Below, piece after piece: positions 46,441 to 61,014 of a stretch of 64,000 nucleotides of DNA. The stretch's first letter is position 1; each line of letters opens with the position of its first letter. This DNA is from Paracoccus salsus. Lineage in GTDB: Bacteria; Pseudomonadota; Alphaproteobacteria; Rhodobacterales; Rhodobacteraceae. A program made the position numbers and the translations under genes. The notes below the pieces were generated by a model. That model was not told the DNA's origin. It made no database searches and worked only from the letters and a program-made list of their open reading frames with translations. The stretch is taken from the NCBI RefSeq assembly GCF_021556615.1, contig NZ_JAKGGD010000002.1, positions 372,001-436,000 of the forward strand. The letters run 5' to 3'.

Positions 46441-46738
46441 TTTTTCCTCGCTTCGGCCTGGTCCAGGATCAGCGTGCGACAATGCTTCAGTTGATCCGCG
46501 CTGTCGCGTGGCCTCCATCAGCCCTGTCCGTGCACTGCCCCGACCAGCTGCCGGTTCGGCGGCGCCTGACAGGGCGAATCATAGCAATCGGTCGGTCGGC
46601 CGTGCAAACGGTTTCGGCCCGCAAGGCACGGCGCGATCGGGGCCCGAGGGCCGGACCGGACCAGGCCGATGCGCATGCCCGCCTTCCCAAAGGCCGCGCT
46701 TTCATGTATCAGCGCGCGAATTCCAAGGACAGCATGAC
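46441..46738. other. Non-coding gap before miaB
   Basis: A 298-bp stretch between the divergent SRPBCC gene and miaB. I see no coding signal, tRNA-like fold or strong hairpin. It may hold the promoters for both genes. Confidence 0.55.
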
Positions 46739-48070
46739 ATGAGCGACCCCGCCGGCCCGGCCGCAAAGAAGCTATTCATCAAGACCTATGGCTGTCAGAT
46801 GAATGTCTATGACAGCCAGCGCATGGCCGAGGCCATGGGCGCCGAGGGATATGTCCTGACAGAGGACCAGGCCGAGGCGGACATGGTCCTGCTGAACACC
46901 TGCCACATCCGTGAAAAGGCGGCCGAGAAGCTTTACAGCGATCTTGGTCGGCTGAAGCCGTTGAAAGCCGCAAGGCCCGACCTGAAGATCGGCGTGGCGG
47001 GCTGTGTCGCGCAGGCCGAGGGCGCCGAGATCATCCGCCGGATGCCGCTGGTCGATCTGGTTGTGGGGCCGCAGACCTATCACCGCCTGCCGGCGATGCT
47101 GCGTGGCGAGGCACCTGCGATCCTGACCGATTTTCCGGAAGAGGACAAATTCGACCATCTGCCGGAACGCCGGGCGACCCGCCGCGCGCCCGCGGCTTTC
47201 CTGACCGTGCAGGAAGGCTGCGACAAGTTCTGCGCCTTCTGCGTCGTGCCCTACACGCGCGGGGCAGAGGTCAGCCGACCGGTCGCGCGGATCGTGCATG
47301 AGGCACGCGACCTGGTCGCCCGCGGCGTCCGCGAGATCACCTTGCTGGGACAGAACGTCAATGGCTGGCACGGCATCGGCGAGGACGGGCGCGAATGGGG
47401 ATTCGGCCGGCTGATTCGCGCGCTTGGCGACATCGAGGGGCTGGACCGCATCCGCTATACGACCAGTCATCCGAACGACATGGCCGACGACCTGATCGCG
47501 GCGCATCGCGACGTGCCGCAGTTGATGCCCTATCTGCATCTGCCGGTGCAGTCCGGCAGCGACCGGATTCTGAAGGCGATGAATCGCAGGCATACGGCCG
47601 ACCAGTATCTGCGCCTGATCGATCGCATCCGCGAGGCTCGTCCGGACATGATGCTGACCAGCGACTTCATCGTCGGCTTTCCCGGCGAAACCGATCAGGA
47701 CCACGATGCCACGCTGCGATTGATCGAACAGGTCGGCTTCGGCACTGCGTTCAGCTTCAAGTATTCGCCGCGGCCGGGTACGCCGGCCTATGACCGGCCC
47801 GAGGTCGAGAGCGCCGTGGCAGACGCGCGGCTGCAGGAATTGCAGGCGCTTCTGACCCGCCAGCAAAAGGCCACGCAGCAGGCCATGGTCGGCCGGACCC
47901 TCCGTGTGCTGTTCGAGAAATCGGGTCGCATGACGGGCCAGATGGTCGGCAAGTCGGATTACCTGCACTCGGTCTTTGTGGATGCTCCCGAAGCCCGGAT
48001 CGGCGATCTGGCAAAGGTCCGCATCCTGGAAACTGCGGCGAATTCGCTGCGGGGCGAGTTGTCAGCCTGA
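46739..48070 (+). CDS. miaB: tRNA-2-methylthio-N6-dimethylallyladenosine synthase
   Basis: MiaB is a radical-SAM methylthiotransferase that modifies A37 in tRNAs. It starts at the ATG at 46739; the nearby ATG at 46734 is out of frame. The N-terminal UPF0004 domain has three Cys: [18 protein letters not shown] and [11 protein letters not shown]. The radical SAM Cys triplet is [15 protein letters not shown] near residue 158. A C-terminal TRAM domain holds the [14 protein letters not shown] segment. It has 443 residues, normal for the family. Confidence 0.96.
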
Positions 48071-48180
48071 AGAGGTCCTGGGCGGCATGGACGCCTCGCC
48101 CTCGACCGGCATGGGTTTGGTGCGCGGCGGACTCGCGTGATGACGCTCGCCTGACACGCGCGAAGTTGCTAGGAGTAAGC

Positions 48181-48219
48181 ACCGGCCCCCAAGGAACGCG
48201 CGAACATCTGGGGGCCGGT
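48181..48219. terminator. Hairpin 1 with conserved 16-nt loop core
   Basis: A perfect 10-bp stem ACCGGCCCCC / GGGGGCCGGT (48181-48190, 48210-48219) encloses a 19-nt loop starting AAGGAACGCGCGAACA. The same 16 nt begin the loop of the hairpin at 48306. A pyrimidine stretch follows on the plus strand. Possible terminator for miaB or part of an RNA. Confidence 0.7.
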
Positions 48220-48254
48220 CTCTTCCACGCGGACTAGCCTGCGCGAAAGACCAT

Positions 48255-48286
48255 GCCTGGGACGACGCCGGGGAACCCGGCCAGGC
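48255..48286. other. Hairpin 2 between the twin hairpins
   Basis: Inner stem GCCGGG / CCCGGC (48267-48272, 48276-48281) with a GAA loop, and an outer GCCTG / CAGGC pair (48255-48259, 48282-48286) separated on the left by a 7-nt bulge. It sits between the two hairpins that share a loop. Confidence 0.55.
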
Positions 48287-48305
48287 CCAGAGCGGTTACA
48301 GGGTT

Positions 48306-48347
48306 GGCCGCCCCCCAAGGAACGCGCGAACAGGAAGGGGGGCGGCC
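48306..48347. terminator. Hairpin 3 with the same 16-nt loop core
   Basis: A perfect 11-bp stem GGCCGCCCCCC / GGGGGGCGGCC (48306-48316, 48337-48347) encloses a 20-nt loop beginning AAGGAACGCGCGAACA, identical to hairpin 1 for 16 nt. It is the closest hairpin to the ccoP stop (48397), so a likely end for the cbb3 transcript. Confidence 0.7.
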
Positions 48348-48396
48348 CCTTTCATACCGGCGAGCCGGCATGAAAAGCGGGCACGGTCTGGGCGGC

Positions 48397-49413
48397 TTAC
48401 TCGCCGCCGCCCAGACCGTGGACATAGGTTGCGACGGCGCGAATCTCGGCCTCGCTGAGACGTGATGACCAGGCGGGCATCACCCCGTAAGGCCCCTCGG
48501 TCACGATCCGCGTGACCGTGGCGATGTCGCCGCCATACAGCCAGACCGCATCCGCCAGGTTGGGCGCACCCTGAGCCTGATCCCCCGAGCCGTCCTCCAT
48601 ATGGCAGAACGCGCAATTTTCCAGATACACGACCTCGCCTTCGCTGGCCAAGCCAGCATCATGCGGCTGGTCCGACATGGACAGGACATAGTTTGCCACC
48701 TGGCTGATCTGCGCCCGGTCCAGCAAGCCGTCACGGCCATAGCGCGGCATCTCGGAATAGCGGGTGTCGGGATCGTGCGGGTCGCGGATGCCATGTTGCA
48801 GGGTCAGATGGATGTCTTCCAGCGTTCCACCCCAAAGCCAGTCATTGTCCAGCAGGTTGGGATAGCCCGGGCCGCCGGCCGCGCCGGACCCGTGACATTG
48901 CGCGCACCAGGTGCGGAACACCGCGCCGCCCGCATTGGTGGCATAGCTGACCAGTTCGGGGTCATTGGGGATCTGCTCAAGTTCGACCGAGGCCAGCCTT
49001 GTCTGGATTTCCGCGTTGGCCTGATCGAAGCGTTCGATCTCGGCTGCAACCTGCTGGCGTGTCGTGGTGCCCAGCAGACCCTGCGTCGCGGAATTGACCA
49101 GCGGGATCGCGGGATAGGCGATGAGGTACCCGATGGCCCAGACGATCGTGGCGTAGAATGTCCACAACCACCAGCGCGGCATCGGATTGTCATATTCCGT
49201 GATGCCGTCCCACTCGTGCCCGGTCGAGGGCACCTCGTTCATGGCGACCCCGTGGCGGCCCTTGCGGCGATGCTTGGGTGTCTCGGGCTTGTCCGGCCCC
49301 TCGCGCGAGGGAACGTCGCCGGCAATCTTGGCCGCGTGTTCGGCATCGGCGGCCTCACGCCGAAGGGAGAGCTTGTCCTCGTCGCCCGGCTTCTTGTCCT
49401 TCTCGTCGGCCAT
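48397..49413 (-). CDS. ccoP: cbb3-type cytochrome c oxidase subunit III
   Basis: CcoP is the membrane-bound dihaem cytochrome c that delivers electrons to the cbb3 oxidase. The start is the ATG at 49413, overlapping the ccoQ stop; 338 residues. A charged N-terminus (residues 1-60) is followed by a transmembrane helix ([20 protein letters not shown]), then two haem c sites, WCAQCHGSG and [10 protein letters not shown], with distal Met in the MPAW region. It ends the ccoNOQP operon. Confidence 0.97.
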
Positions 49414-49601
49414 CAACGGCCCTCCTTCTCATCCGCCGCAGCGGGGCGGGACTCGTGGCGGAAGATGCTTTCGGCGGCATCGTCCTGAAGCTTTCTCGAA
49501 CCGGGGCGAAACACGAACACCACGACGCCCACGAAAAACAGCGTCAGCGCCAGCAGCGCCCAGCTGTCGGCCAGTTCGCGCAAGAAGCTGTAGAGATCCA
49601 T
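49413..49601 (-). CDS. ccoQ: cbb3-type cytochrome c oxidase subunit CcoQ
   Basis: A 62-residue protein with a single transmembrane helix ([17 protein letters not shown]) and a charged tail ending [12 protein letters not shown]. It starts at the ATG at 49601 after a GGAGGAGAGG ribosome site. CcoQ is a small non-haem subunit that helps stabilise the oxidase. It is located between ccoO (10 bp) and ccoP, overlapping the latter's start. Confidence 0.93.
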
Positions 49602-50349: not shown

Positions 50350-51954
50350 TCACTCGGCCGCTACGGCGACAGCGGTCGAATACGCCTTTGGCTGACGGGC
50401 GACGGTCGCCCACAGGTTATAGGCCATGATGATGCCGCCCGTCAGGAACAGCAGCCCCCCGAGGCCCCGCACCACGTTCATCGCGAACTTGGCCTGCACG
50501 GTGTCGGCGAACGCGTTGACCAGGAAGCCCTGGCTGTCGACTTCGCGCCACATCAGACCTTCCATGATCCCCGACACCCACATCGACGAGGCGTAGAGAA
50601 CCAGCCCGATGGTTGCCAGCCAGAAGTGCCAGCTGACCAGCGACAGGCTGTACAGACGTTCGCGTCCCCACAACCGCGGAACCAGGTAGTAAAGTGCGCC
50701 GAAGGTGATCATCCCGTTCCAGCCAAGCGCGCCGGAATGGACATGGCCGATCGTCCAGTCGGTATAGTGCGACAGGCTGTTCACGGCCTTGATCGACATC
50801 ATCGGTCCCTCGAACGTGGCCATGCCATAGAAGCCGACGGCCACGACCATCATCCGGATGATCGGGTCGGTGCGCAGCTTGTCCCAGGCGCCCGACAGGG
50901 TCATCAGGCCGTTGATCATGCCGCCCCAGCTGGGCATCCAGAGCATGATCGAGAACGCCATCCCCAGCGTCGAGGCCCAGTCCGGCAGCGCCGTGTAATG
51001 CAGATGGTGCGGACCGGCCCAGATATACAGGAAGATCAGCGCCCAGAAGTGGATGATCGACAGCTTGTAGCTGTAGACCGGACGCTCGGCCTGTTTCGGG
51101 ATGAAGTAGTACATCATGCCCAGGAAGCCTGCGGTCAGGAAGAAGCCCACGGCGTTGTGCCCGTACCACCACTGCACCATCGCGTCCTGCACGCCCGAGA
51201 ACACCTGGACGGACTTGCTGCCAAAGATGCTGACGGGGATCGACAGGTTGTTGACCACATGCAGCATCGCGATCGTCACGATGAAGGCCAGGTAGAACCA
51301 GTTGGCGACATAGATATGCGGTTCCTTGCGCTTGACGATCGTTCCCAGGAAGACCGCCAGATAGACCAGCCACACCGCGGTCAGCCACCAGTCCACATAC
51401 CATTCCGGCTCTGCGTATTCCTTGGACTGCGTTGCGCCGAGGATATAACCGGTGGCGGCCAGAACGATCACAAGCTGATAGCCCCAGAACACGAACCATG
51501 CCGCATTGCCGCCCCACAGCCGCGCAGCCGAGGTTCGCTGGACGACATAGAACGAGGTGGCGATCAGCGCGTTCCCCCCGAAGGCAAAGATCACCGCACT
51601 GGTGTGCAGCGGGCGCAACTTGCCGAAATTCGTGTAGCCCTGAAACACGTCACTGAAATTCAGCGCCGGGAAGGCCAGCTGGAAGGCGATGATGACGCCG
51701 ACCAGGAAGCCGACGACGCCCCACACGGTCGTGGCGATCACGCCGGCGCGAACCACGCCGTCCATGTATTCGTTCGGATCGGGCGCCACGACAGGTTCGT
51801 CGATGCGGCGCAGAGTCCAGATGAACAGCCCCGACGCGACGAACATCACCGTCAGCGCATTGACCATGTATGCTGCATCATGCGCCAGGTTGGCGCCGAT
51901 CGCGGACGCCACTGCGACCACCCCCAGCAAGATCAGCTTTACGTAATTCCCCAT
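50350..51954 (-). CDS. ccoN: cbb3-type cytochrome c oxidase subunit I
   Basis: CcoN is the catalytic, proton-pumping subunit holding haem b and the haem b3-CuB site. The 534 residues have about 12 transmembrane helices. Active-site signatures include [25 protein letters not shown], and [21 protein letters not shown], and a heme-ligand His in [16 protein letters not shown]-type sequence ([15 protein letters not shown]). Two FNR boxes lie just upstream of the start, within the divergent region with the universal stress gene, consistent with induction at low oxygen. Confidence 0.97.
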
Positions 51955-52065: not shown

Positions 52066-52079
52066 TTGATCTGGGTCAA
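52066..52079. promoter_or_regulatory. FNR-type box (proximal to ccoN)
   Basis: TTGATCTGGGTCAA matches the TTGAT-N4-ATCAA FNR consensus with one mismatch (GTCAA for ATCAA). Its centre is at 52072.5. A TATTCC element on the minus strand at 52043-52038 would give a start near 52031, about 41.5 bp from the centre, the usual class II distance for activating ccoN. The same 14-mer occurs at 54244. Confidence 0.8.
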
Positions 52080-52088
52080 TCTGCGGAT

Positions 52089-52102
52089 TTGACGCCGATC
52101 AA
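52089..52102. promoter_or_regulatory. FNR-type box (proximal to the universal stress gene)
   Basis: TTGACGCCGATCAA matches the FNR consensus with one mismatch (TTGAC for TTGAT). Its centre is at 52095.5. A GATGAT -10-like element at 52125-52130 would place a start near 52137, about 41.5 bp from the centre and about 21 bp before the ATG of the stress gene. Confidence 0.75.
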
Positions 52103-53492: not shown

Positions 53493-54272
53493 TCAGCTGA
53501 TCCAGCCGCCATCGCTATCGTCGCCGGACTCCTCGACCAACCGGTCGAAGTCGGGCAACACGACATTGCGCTTGCCGACCAGTTCAATGATGCCTCCGCG
53601 CTTCAGCGCGCTGACCTGACGACTGACGGTTTCCAGTGTCAGGCCCAGATAATCCGCCATTGCCTCTCGCGTCAGGGGCAGTTCGACCTGCATGCGGCCG
53701 CCGGGATGGCGCTTTTCCAAGGCAGCCTCGCGGCGGGCGACGATGGCGATGAAGGACGCGATCTTCTCGCGCGCGGTCTTGCGACCCAGAAGCAGCATCC
53801 ACTCACGCGCCGCATCCAACTCGTCCAGGGTCATTTCCAGCAGGCGATGCGACAGATGCGGCATGTCGCGCAGCATGTCGTTGAAAGGCTTGCGGCGAAA
53901 GCAGCACAGCACGACCTTGGTCGTCGCCACAGCATTGTAAGCCGCCTTGTCGCGGCCCGGCCGCCCAAGGAAATCGCTTGGCAGCAGCAGGCCGACCATC
54001 TGCGTGCGCCCGTCCTCGAGCGTCTGGGTCAGCGTCGCCACGCCGGTGACCACCGACGCCACGAAGTCCATGTGGTCGCCGCCCCAGACGATCGCCTGAC
54101 CCGGCTCGTAGCTGCGATAGAACTTGATCTCCTCGAGCCGCGGCAACTCGGCATCCTCGCAATCGGCGCAGACCGCCCGATAGCGGATCGGGCAGTCTTC
54201 ACACCGCAGCTTGACCGGCACGTCGGCAGGTCGTCCGCTTGACTTGATCTGGGTCAATGTTTGCGCGCTCAT
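53493..54272 (-). CDS. fnrP: Crp/Fnr family oxygen sensor regulator (FnrP)
   Basis: A 259-residue FNR-type transcription factor that binds a 4Fe-4S cluster when oxygen is scarce. N-terminal cysteines are C24, C27, C35 and C38 (CEDCPIRYRAVCADC), with another pair at C123 and C124, giving a cluster-ligand set. A cyclic-nucleotide-fold domain follows, then the helix-turn-helix TREAMADYLGLTLETVSRQVSAL with the ETVSR recognition residues that suit TTGAT-N4-ATCAA. Start is either the ATG at 54272 or a GTG at 54221. An FNR box lies at 54244-54257, inside codons 5-10, suggesting autoregulation. Confidence 0.9.
   Translation of the reverse strand: MSAQTLTQIKSSGRPADVPVKLRCEDCPIRYRAVCADCEDAELPRLEEIKFYRSYEPGQAIVWGGDHMDFVASVVTGVATLTQTLEDGRTQMVGLLLPSDFLGRPGRDKAAYNAVATTKVVLCCFRRKPFNDMLRDMPHLSHRLLEMTLDELDAAREWMLLLGRKTAREKIASFIAIVARREAALEKRHPGGRMQVELPLTREAMADYLGLTLETVSRQVSALKRGGIIELVGKRNVVLPDFDRLVEESGDDSDGGWIS
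54244..54257. promoter_or_regulatory. FNR-type box inside the fnrP 5' end, upstream of hemN
   Basis: TTGATCTGGGTCAA, identical to the box at 52066. Its centre (54250.5) lies 42.5 bp before the hemN ATG. A TTATCT -10-like element at 54279-54284 places the hemN start at about 54291-54293. On the other strand it covers codons 5-10 of fnrP if the ATG start is used. Confidence 0.8.
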
Positions 54273-60090: not shown

Positions 60091-61014
60091 ATGAGCAATG
60101 CCATCGACATCAAGGGTCTGCACAAGACCTACCGCGCGCAGGGCAACGCGCCCGCCAAGAAGGCGCTGAAGGGGATCGATCTGGCGATTCCCGCGGGCAG
60201 CATCTTCGGCCTGCTTGGACCGAACGGCGCCGGCAAGTCGACTTTGATCAACATCCTCGCGGGGCTGGTCAACAAGACCGACGGGAAGGTGGTGATCTGG
60301 GGCTTCGATCAGGACGTGAACCCCCGCCAGTCGCGTGCCGCCATCGGGGTCATGCCGCAGGAGCTGAACATGGACCCGTTCTTTACGCCGCGCGCCAGCC
60401 TCGAGGTCCAGGCGGGGCTTTATGGGGTGCCGAAATCCGAGCGCTGGACCGATGAGCTTCTGGAACTGGTCGGCCTGACCGATCAGGCGAACGCCTATGC
60501 CCGCAACCTTTCGGGCGGGATGCGTCGGCGCCTGCTGCTGGCCAAGGCGCTGGTCCACCGGCCGCAGATCCTGGTGCTGGACGAACCGACGGCCGGTGTC
60601 GACATCACCCTGCGCGAGATGCTGTGGCAGAATGTCCGCCGCCTGAACCGGGCCGGCATGACGATCATCCTGACCACGCATTACCTCGAAGAGGCCGAGC
60701 AGATGTGCGACGAGATCGCCATCATCAATCATGGCGAGCTGGTCGTCCGGCAGGGAACGCGCGATCTGCTGAACCGCGCGGACCGCAAGACGCTGCTGAT
60801 CGACGCGGGTGGGCGGGTGGATCTGCCACCCCTGCCCGCGGATGCAAGGCCCGACTGGCGTCCCGACGGAAGGCTGGCGATCAGCTATCCGCCGTCGCGG
60901 ATTCGCGCCGATCAGGTGCTGGATGCGCTGCGCAATGCGGGCGTGCCGATCCTCGACGTGGCGAGCGAACAGCCCGACCTCGAGGATGTGTTCGTCGAGA
61001 TGACCCGGACCTGA
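60091..61014 (+). CDS. ABC-2 type transporter ATP-binding protein
   Basis: A 307-residue ATPase with Walker [16 protein letters not shown] near residue 44, Q-loop [11 protein letters not shown], signature [16 protein letters not shown] near residue 142, and Walker [13 protein letters not shown]. The C-terminal DUF-like extension (ends VEMTRT) is as in drug and polysaccharide exporters of the ABC-2 group. The expected ABC-2 permease is not next to it in this window; the neighbour is a HIT gene on the opposite strand. The substrate is unknown. Confidence 0.93.

Follow-up and report, generated by a model that had tools for sequence, protein, structure and literature searches.

The intergenic region behind the ccoNOQP operon of Paracoccus salsus carries a doubled copy of an orphan RNA motif that is probably expressed as a small regulatory RNA at low oxygen. 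The region belongs to the window analysed here, that is, the whole stretch of 64,000 nucleotides between positions 372,001 and 436,000 of contig NZ_JAKGGD010000002.1, within which all coordinates are counted. By context and shape, and with the consensus compared by description only, we take the element to be a tandem-doubled variant of HRC-8-4, a motif with 160 representatives, known from Rhodobacterales only, where it mostly separates ccoNOQP from ccoGHIS (Brewer et al. 2021, RNA Biol, PMC8632094). In the available part of that account, HRC-8-4 is terminator-like with a conserved tip, ccoP usually lies immediately upstream, ccoG or hvrB is usual but not obligatory downstream, and a role as a riboswitch-like ON switch is speculated upon. 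The present element resembles HRC-8-4, as described there, in its restriction to Rhodobacterales, its position directly after ccoP, its terminator-like stem, its conserved tip and, in the family at large though not in the window, the frequent presence of ccoG or hvrB behind it. In contrast, the window contains two tandem units with additional partner hairpins, a loop that is one base shorter, and a convergent miaB gene behind the element. The motif is here read as an FNR-controlled RNA and not as the ON switch considered in PMC8632094. In the literature searched there was no second paper on HRC-8-4 besides PMC8632094 and, within the accessible text of the sources, no report of a ccoP-adjacent RNA acting as an FNR-controlled sRNA.

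Stem-loops had been predicted from the sequence at 48181-48219 and 48306-48347, and an inverted-repeat check finds both of them there. Their arms (48181-48191/48209-48219 and 48306-48316/48337-48347) are 11 nt each and 100% complementary. The identical 16-nt loop core reported for the pair is real as well: AAGGAACGCGCGAACA occurs exactly twice in the window (48191 and 48317), with a sole additional match at 60752 when up to three mismatches are allowed, and the repeat really comprises 25 nt with one difference (48182-48206 and 48308-48332). No third exact copy of AAGGAACGCGCGAACA is present in the organism's own genome, which holds five other sites at two mismatches. A third hairpin expected between the twins was recovered by folding as a weaker structure at about 48256-48290. 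The original prediction missed a second stem-loop, of the CTTTC...GAAAG type, that is joined to each loop hairpin and is also conserved; in the following, the loop hairpin is termed H1 and its partner H2. The locus is a tandem of two such two-hairpin units, all on the minus strand. In the ccoP-proximal unit, H1 (48306-48347) combines an 11-bp GC stem with a loop whose sense sequence is UUCCUGUUCGCGCGUUCCUU (48317-48336), as indicated by the inverted repeat, a covariance-model match and compensating changes in relatives, and H2 (48348-48377) has the stem CUUUUCAUGCCGG / CCGGUAUGAAAG, seen in the minus-strand fold and conserved in relatives. In the distal unit, H1 (48181-48219) has an 11-bp stem and the same loop core, UGUUCGCGCGUUCC, supported by the inverted repeat and a covariance-model match, and H2 (48222-48249) is a stem of the CTTTCGCGCAGG / CCGCGTGGAAG type with mismatches, recognized by its conserved type. 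The hairpin at 48256-48290 is a variable spacer between the units whose sequence is not conserved. Compared with shuffled sequences, the minus strand (48160-48396, z -4.39) folds better than the plus strand (48140-48370, z -2.68). Rfam yielded no family above the gathering threshold in the window, and a search of five family loci at E up to 1 returned two matches, both below threshold.

The hairpins had originally been linked to miaB and the plus strand, and this assignment did not survive comparison. The convergent miaB gene (46508-48070, plus strand, from the list of open reading frames) is not a constant neighbour in the genus, with other genes in its place in several relatives. The constant upstream neighbour is the 3' end of ccoP (48397-49416, minus strand, end points from the same list), the last gene of the cbb3 oxidase operon ccoNOQP, whose first gene, ccoN (50350-51954, minus strand), was taken from the list and used as a query. 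Among the 35 distinct genus loci listed (of 60), ccoP is found upstream on the same strand in every one and ends 58-92 nt before the first loop; in the window this distance is 67 nt. At least four T residues in the 8 nt after H1 occur on the ccoP strand in 65 of 105 family loci and on the other strand in 5 of 105, with 13.5% for random stretches; in the window, a weak T-run follows both stems, neither of them clear. A plus-strand RNA from miaB was rejected because the plus-strand gene differs between species, ccoP is constant and the U-runs lie on the other strand. CsrA-type GGA sites, suggested by an AAGGA in the plus-strand loop, were dropped once the minus strand was recognized as the sense strand. 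The strand and the ccoP linkage are thus shown by comparison, and the element is the 3' end of the predicted ccoNOQP transcript on the minus strand.

When the 330-nt intergenic region was used as a BLAST query, 75 of 125 genus genomes gave matches. Because the loop varies at its ends, the exact 16-mer AAGGAACGCGCGAACA is missing from the 99 other genomes in a family sample. Model R2, a covariance model built on H1 plus H2 (family cut-off E up to 0.1), matched 77 of 125 genus genomes, a recurrence that is more than chance, and 108 of 295 family genomes. With a model of H1 alone (R3; family cut-off E up to 0.01), the covariation search envisaged in the original prediction shows that the motif, far from being confined to this locus, is family-wide and has stems that vary in a compensatory manner: matches were obtained in 137 of 295 family genomes (137 of 294 sampled genera), counts that do not represent independent events, as the genomes are related, and that come from models favouring loops like those in their building sets. 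Among 289 genomes of the class, R3 gave two matches, both in the family of the window and none outside it. From 107 family loci, two (L167 and L170) in which a text search found no proper loop, and which may be divergent true matches, were removed to leave the 105 considered throughout. CcoO (PF02433) is encoded in 269 of 295 family genomes and, when the listings were compared by hand, in 136 of the 137 hairpin genomes, the exception (G396) being 73% complete. A scan of named genomes gave at least 118 stretches; nearly all of the 80 listed are Rhodobacteraceae by title, the others being an Achromobacter (on a stretch without a cco gene) and four MAGs whose titles say no more than Proteobacteria. 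Single copies are present in Paracoccus denitrificans DSM 413 and Rhodobacter capsulatus DSM 1710; in both, the hairpin lies on the strand of the ccoP match, 59 nt behind that match, and is followed by ccoG.

Most genera have a single copy. Within the genus of the window, a text search found two copies in 28 and one copy in 7 of the 35 distinct loci listed, a count affected at one locus (L024) by a degenerate second hairpin. As three of the single-copy loci (L035, L060 and L063) keep the family-type loop with an extra T, the tandem doubling and the one-base shortening of the loop look derived in part of this genus. Outside the genus, an independent multiplication is seen in L125 (genome G309), where three tandem hairpins with the conserved loop stand behind ccoP.

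Selection on the loop with variable stems had been proposed, and across the family the loop is indeed nearly invariant while the stems change compensatorily. On the sense strand the conserved loop reads CUGUUCGCGCGUU(U)CC, and its positions CTGTTCGCGCGTTTC are 96-100% identical in the 105 family loci and 84-100% identical in 32 later loci. Of 137 family loops, 130 preserve the palindromic CGCGCG, six read CGCGCA at this place and one CGCGTG, and where the palindrome changes the variant loops retain CTGTTCGC. The kissing of the twin loops that the original prediction proposed may occur, with the palindrome mostly preserved on the one hand and a lone copy in most genera on the other. Changes on both sides of a pair affect 7 of 10 pairs of H1 and 5 of 9 pairs of H2 in 16 genus sequences, 10 of 12 pairs of H1 in 43 family sequences, and 7 of 11 predicted pairs in a first, loosely aligned set of 27 sequences. 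Rows were chosen for good pairing (27 of 52 units, selected as well formed, in alignment A2; a 20-nt loop and regular stem in A3; at least 11 of 12 pairs in A4), which inflates the percentages paired and affects the two-sided changes less. Even among 20 model-negative family genomes, several show a hairpin behind ccoP whose loop reads, for example, CTGTTCGCAC.

The link to FNR emerges from the distribution of FNR boxes, defined as a perfect TTGAN6TCAA within 220 nt upstream, relative to ccoP, which was called close when found within 110 nt upstream. In 70 of the 105 family loci ccoP is close, and none of these 70 has an FNR box. A perfect box is present in 33 of the remaining 35 loci (21 with ccoP further off and 12 with no ccoP in the fetched stretch), the two exceptions being L159 and L125, the latter from the genome with three tandem copies. 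A further 34 loci, recognized by the later model alone and including two matches without a findable loop (L188 and L194), repeat this pattern: 24 are close and lack a box, and a box is present at 9 of the remaining 10. The sole exception among these ten, L198 (genome G342, contig C30), is a second copy with neither ccoP nor an FNR box upstream. By our own arithmetic, such a dyad is expected by chance in well under 1% of 220-nt stretches. That the hairpin predicted here is either close behind ccoP or nearly always has its own FNR box is a new observation. Genome G223 has an ordinary loop on its ccoP terminator (L188) and, about 900 nt further on, a separate FNR-led unit with the conserved loop (L147).

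Class II FNR promoters have the centre of the box at -41.5. Counted from zero behind the box, an A stands at position 23 in 31 of the 33 loci, where it would be the second position of a -10 element, and a T at position 27 in 17 of 33; together they point to a -10 element and a start point at class II spacing. From the predicted start to the terminator there would be about 75-120 nt in most loci, and more in L084, L142 and a few others. In this way, 33 of 105 family loci have their own FNR box with class II geometry, while in the window FNR would act through two perfect boxes 5' of ccoN (52066-52102; TTGAN6TCAA on the minus strand at 52079 and 52102), common to ccoN and the divergent usp, where binding is predicted. 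Judged from these sequence patterns, the FNR link is well supported. The window has a further perfect FNR box, readable on both strands, near the cco cluster (54244-54257).

What the loop may recognize is suggested by GCGAACAG, the complement of the loop core. In 83 loci with the loop, an FNR box and ccoG, at least eight complementary nucleotides occur in 18 leaders, against 1.7 expected from shuffled leaders that keep composition only. The commonest 8-mer of the predicted ccoG start region is GCGAACAG, present in 14 of 83 leaders and absent from 69; its distance behind the FNR box is 33-37 nt in 13 cases and 42 nt in one, which is where the start of transcription is expected. Genome-wide, the pattern of an FNR box, 26-44 nucleotides and GCGAACAG gave 48 matches in 39 of 218 family genomes and 19 matches in 13 of 125 genus genomes, compared with 8 and 1 matches, respectively, when the pattern was reversed. 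The reversed pattern does not preserve the frequency of FNR boxes, and the 8-mer ranking is the better control. Some matches are the hairpin itself read backwards through the palindromic box, namely L351 and L353-L355 in the genus and one or more in each of the family genomes G281 and G283. Once these readings are removed, 15 genuine leaders remain from the 19 genus matches; they belong to ccoG (six), ccoN (six), usp-like genes identified by eye (two) and one other gene. Among 30 family pattern loci that were fetched, BLAST finds ccoG in 13 and ccoN in 2 (one of them behind usp), and Pfam assigns Usp twice as well as a globin, an S30AE protein, a Crp-type regulator, a CMD protein and an aminotransferase I/II that is HemA-like by eye. 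The Crp/Fnr-type regulator gene, at L328 (Pfam cNMP_binding and HTH_Crp_2), has an FNR-box-like dyad and GCGAACAG in front. A start codon follows GCGAACAG by 9-17 nt in several loci. The fetched set comprises 15 ccoG loci (13 by BLAST, with L310 and L329 added by identity with L296 and L165), of which 14 have a CTGTTCGC[GA]C loop upstream. In model-negative genomes, ccoG leaders accompanied by CTGTTCGCAC-like loops hold GCGAACAG too. Among 15 model-negative ccoG loci the site is present in 4 of 5 with the loop and in 0 of 10 without it (p 0.004), L300 having been scored as lacking the site because its fetched stretch ended at the BLAST start of ccoG, while the leader-complement search shows it.

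Other comparisons went against the pairing. The ccoN and usp leaders of the window have no GCGAACAG behind their FNR boxes, and the genome of the window has no match to the pattern of FNR box and GCGAACAG. In 21 loop-leader pairs, cognate duplexes are not stronger than swapped ones (-19.95 versus -19.98 kcal/mol, p 0.52). A general pairing with ccoN leaders was rejected for the window and 19 further loci, as the best duplex lies within the range of 20 shuffled loops except at L223 and its position varies from locus to locus. Genome-wide, 12-nt complements of the loop are hardly enriched (191 against 166 reversed, and 108 against 75; our own sums, hairpins included), and the 60 such loci that were fetched show no recurring gene beyond hairpin loci, except one pair; at L237 the 12-nt site is antisense within a gene. 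Each 12-nt pattern is absent from 9 of 51 genomes, and a universal rRNA or tRNA target for these 12 bases is therefore unlikely.

Taken together, the supporting comparisons and the results against them leave the FNR link well supported, a function as sRNA likely, and the loop-leader pairing plausible but unproven; the initial reading of the hairpins as a small RNA or terminator finds support at the level of sequence. An FNR-controlled small RNA with a less certain loop-leader pairing is the best explanation as a whole, with the balance tipping slightly in its favour. The two-hairpin unit would be made with H2 preceding H1, the latter being a terminator-type stem that exposes the nearly invariant loop. 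FNR would drive the RNA at low oxygen, either as part of the ccoNOQP mRNA, from which it is perhaps cut, or from a promoter of its own, giving a small RNA some 75-120 nt long. Less certain is a further step, in which the loop core 5'-CUGUUCGC-3' would pair with 5'-GCGAACAG-3' at the 5' ends of mRNAs that FNR activates (ccoG, ccoN and usp). In those cases in which the leader is short, the site would reach into the Shine-Dalgarno region, and pairing could damp translation or shield the 5' end, the result being a feed-forward loop within the FNR regulon.

The gene behind the hairpin is ccoG in 59 of the 105 family loci, hvrB in 31 and another in 15. With ccoG or hvrB thus following in 90 loci, and given the terminator-like stem and conserved tip, the idea of Brewer et al. 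that a riboswitch-like or protein-controlled ON switch governs read-through into ccoGHIS or hvrB has to be weighed, but we consider it decidedly unlikely. A perfect FNR box of its own separates ccoG from the hairpin in 57 of 59 loci, which counts against the published riboswitch idea and likewise argues against a leader or attenuator of ccoG; together with 14 hairpins that are bracketed by two boxes, it speaks for a discrete unit. Moreover, the next gene in the window is convergent, and the stem is accompanied by H2 and often by a promoter of its own. The LysR regulator gene hvrB keeps its place behind the hairpin with no perfect FNR box in between (0 of 31 loci), which leaves room for a read-through role there. 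Very improbable is a plain terminator pair between convergent genes, with loops that are identical through recent functionless duplication or gene conversion. It would suit the convergent position and the GC-rich stems of the window, but single-copy genera of the family keep the same loop core while the stems change, and conversion between two copies cannot explain that identity.

The conserved loop might instead be a protein-binding site, or the RNA might dimerise through CGCGCG, so as to stabilise or process the ccoNOQP mRNA or to sequester a protein, with GCGAACAG secondary or unrelated. Several observations would fit: about 15 loop bases are conserved, more than an 8-nt seed needs, loop and leader flanks do not coevolve, the majority of leaders are without the site, and the palindrome is largely intact. 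This is nevertheless judged unlikely in view of the complementary site, with its excess and its placement at starts driven by FNR, and of the variant loops that keep CTGTTCGC while CGCGCG changes. Pairing could also take place within one mRNA, the 3' loop of ccoNOQP and a GCGAACAG at its own 5' end protecting the message, as the six site-bearing ccoN leaders of the genus and at least one in the family (L322) might suggest. However, ccoG, which is transcribed from another promoter, carries the site no less often, and 12 of 105 units are stand-alone and FNR-led without ccoP, making protection within one message highly improbable. The most specific form of the preferred reading can be offered only tentatively: HRC-8-4 may be an FNR-induced sRNA family of Rhodobacteraceae, doubled in the lineage of the window, in which the loop of the terminator pairs with a GCGAACAG box right at the start of mRNAs activated by FNR (ccoN, ccoG and usp and, in single genomes, those for a globin, an S30AE protein and an aminotransferase).

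Known small RNAs offer partial parallels to an FNR-controlled RNA of this kind. The CcsR or "cuckoo" RNAs of Rhodobacteraceae are small RNAs with a conserved loop motif, CCUCCUCCC, several of them in tandem. They are alike in having a conserved motif in loops and tandem copies, and unlike in their gene context and in the motif CCUCCUCCC itself, which the present element lacks. In this group, RSs0680a is mentioned in PMC3320616. FnrS and its kin are FNR-controlled sRNAs, with an FNR-dependent promoter and a short RNA ending in a terminator. Unlike in FnrS, the seed would lie in the terminator loop, the RNA would often be borne by a 3' UTR and the proposed targets are themselves FNR-activated; no sequence relation is claimed. 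The likeness, as far as the accessible text on FnrS allows (also PMC8139620, PMC4263372), would consist in the FNR-dependent promoter and the short terminated RNA. RSs0019 and RSs2461 are described as FnrL-bound sRNAs at other loci (PMC4263372, in its available part). From what is accessible of PMC8625941, UdsB and UdsC of Rhodobacter sphaeroides share the position in an mRNA 3' UTR and the terminator 3' end, and differ in their gene loci and in that processing of the present RNA is only predicted. DenR/sRNA-29 and other sRNAs of P. denitrificans come from the same bacterial group and relate to anaerobic growth (PMC6686037, PMC5107571, as available). Of the 167 sRNAs reported for P. denitrificans, the 16 confirmed ones are tabulated in the available part of PMC5107571, and none of these is stated to lie at ccoP.

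With the strand, the probable FNR control, the predicted starts and a concrete 8-nt candidate target at the mRNAs for the cbb3 oxidase and its assembly, the orphan motif of 2021 gains a testable role. The motif is present in P. denitrificans DSM 413 and R. capsulatus DSM 1710, model species for the oxygen control of respiration. If the proposed pairing is true, one and the same regulator would make messages and, in addition, an RNA that reads a 5'-end code on them.
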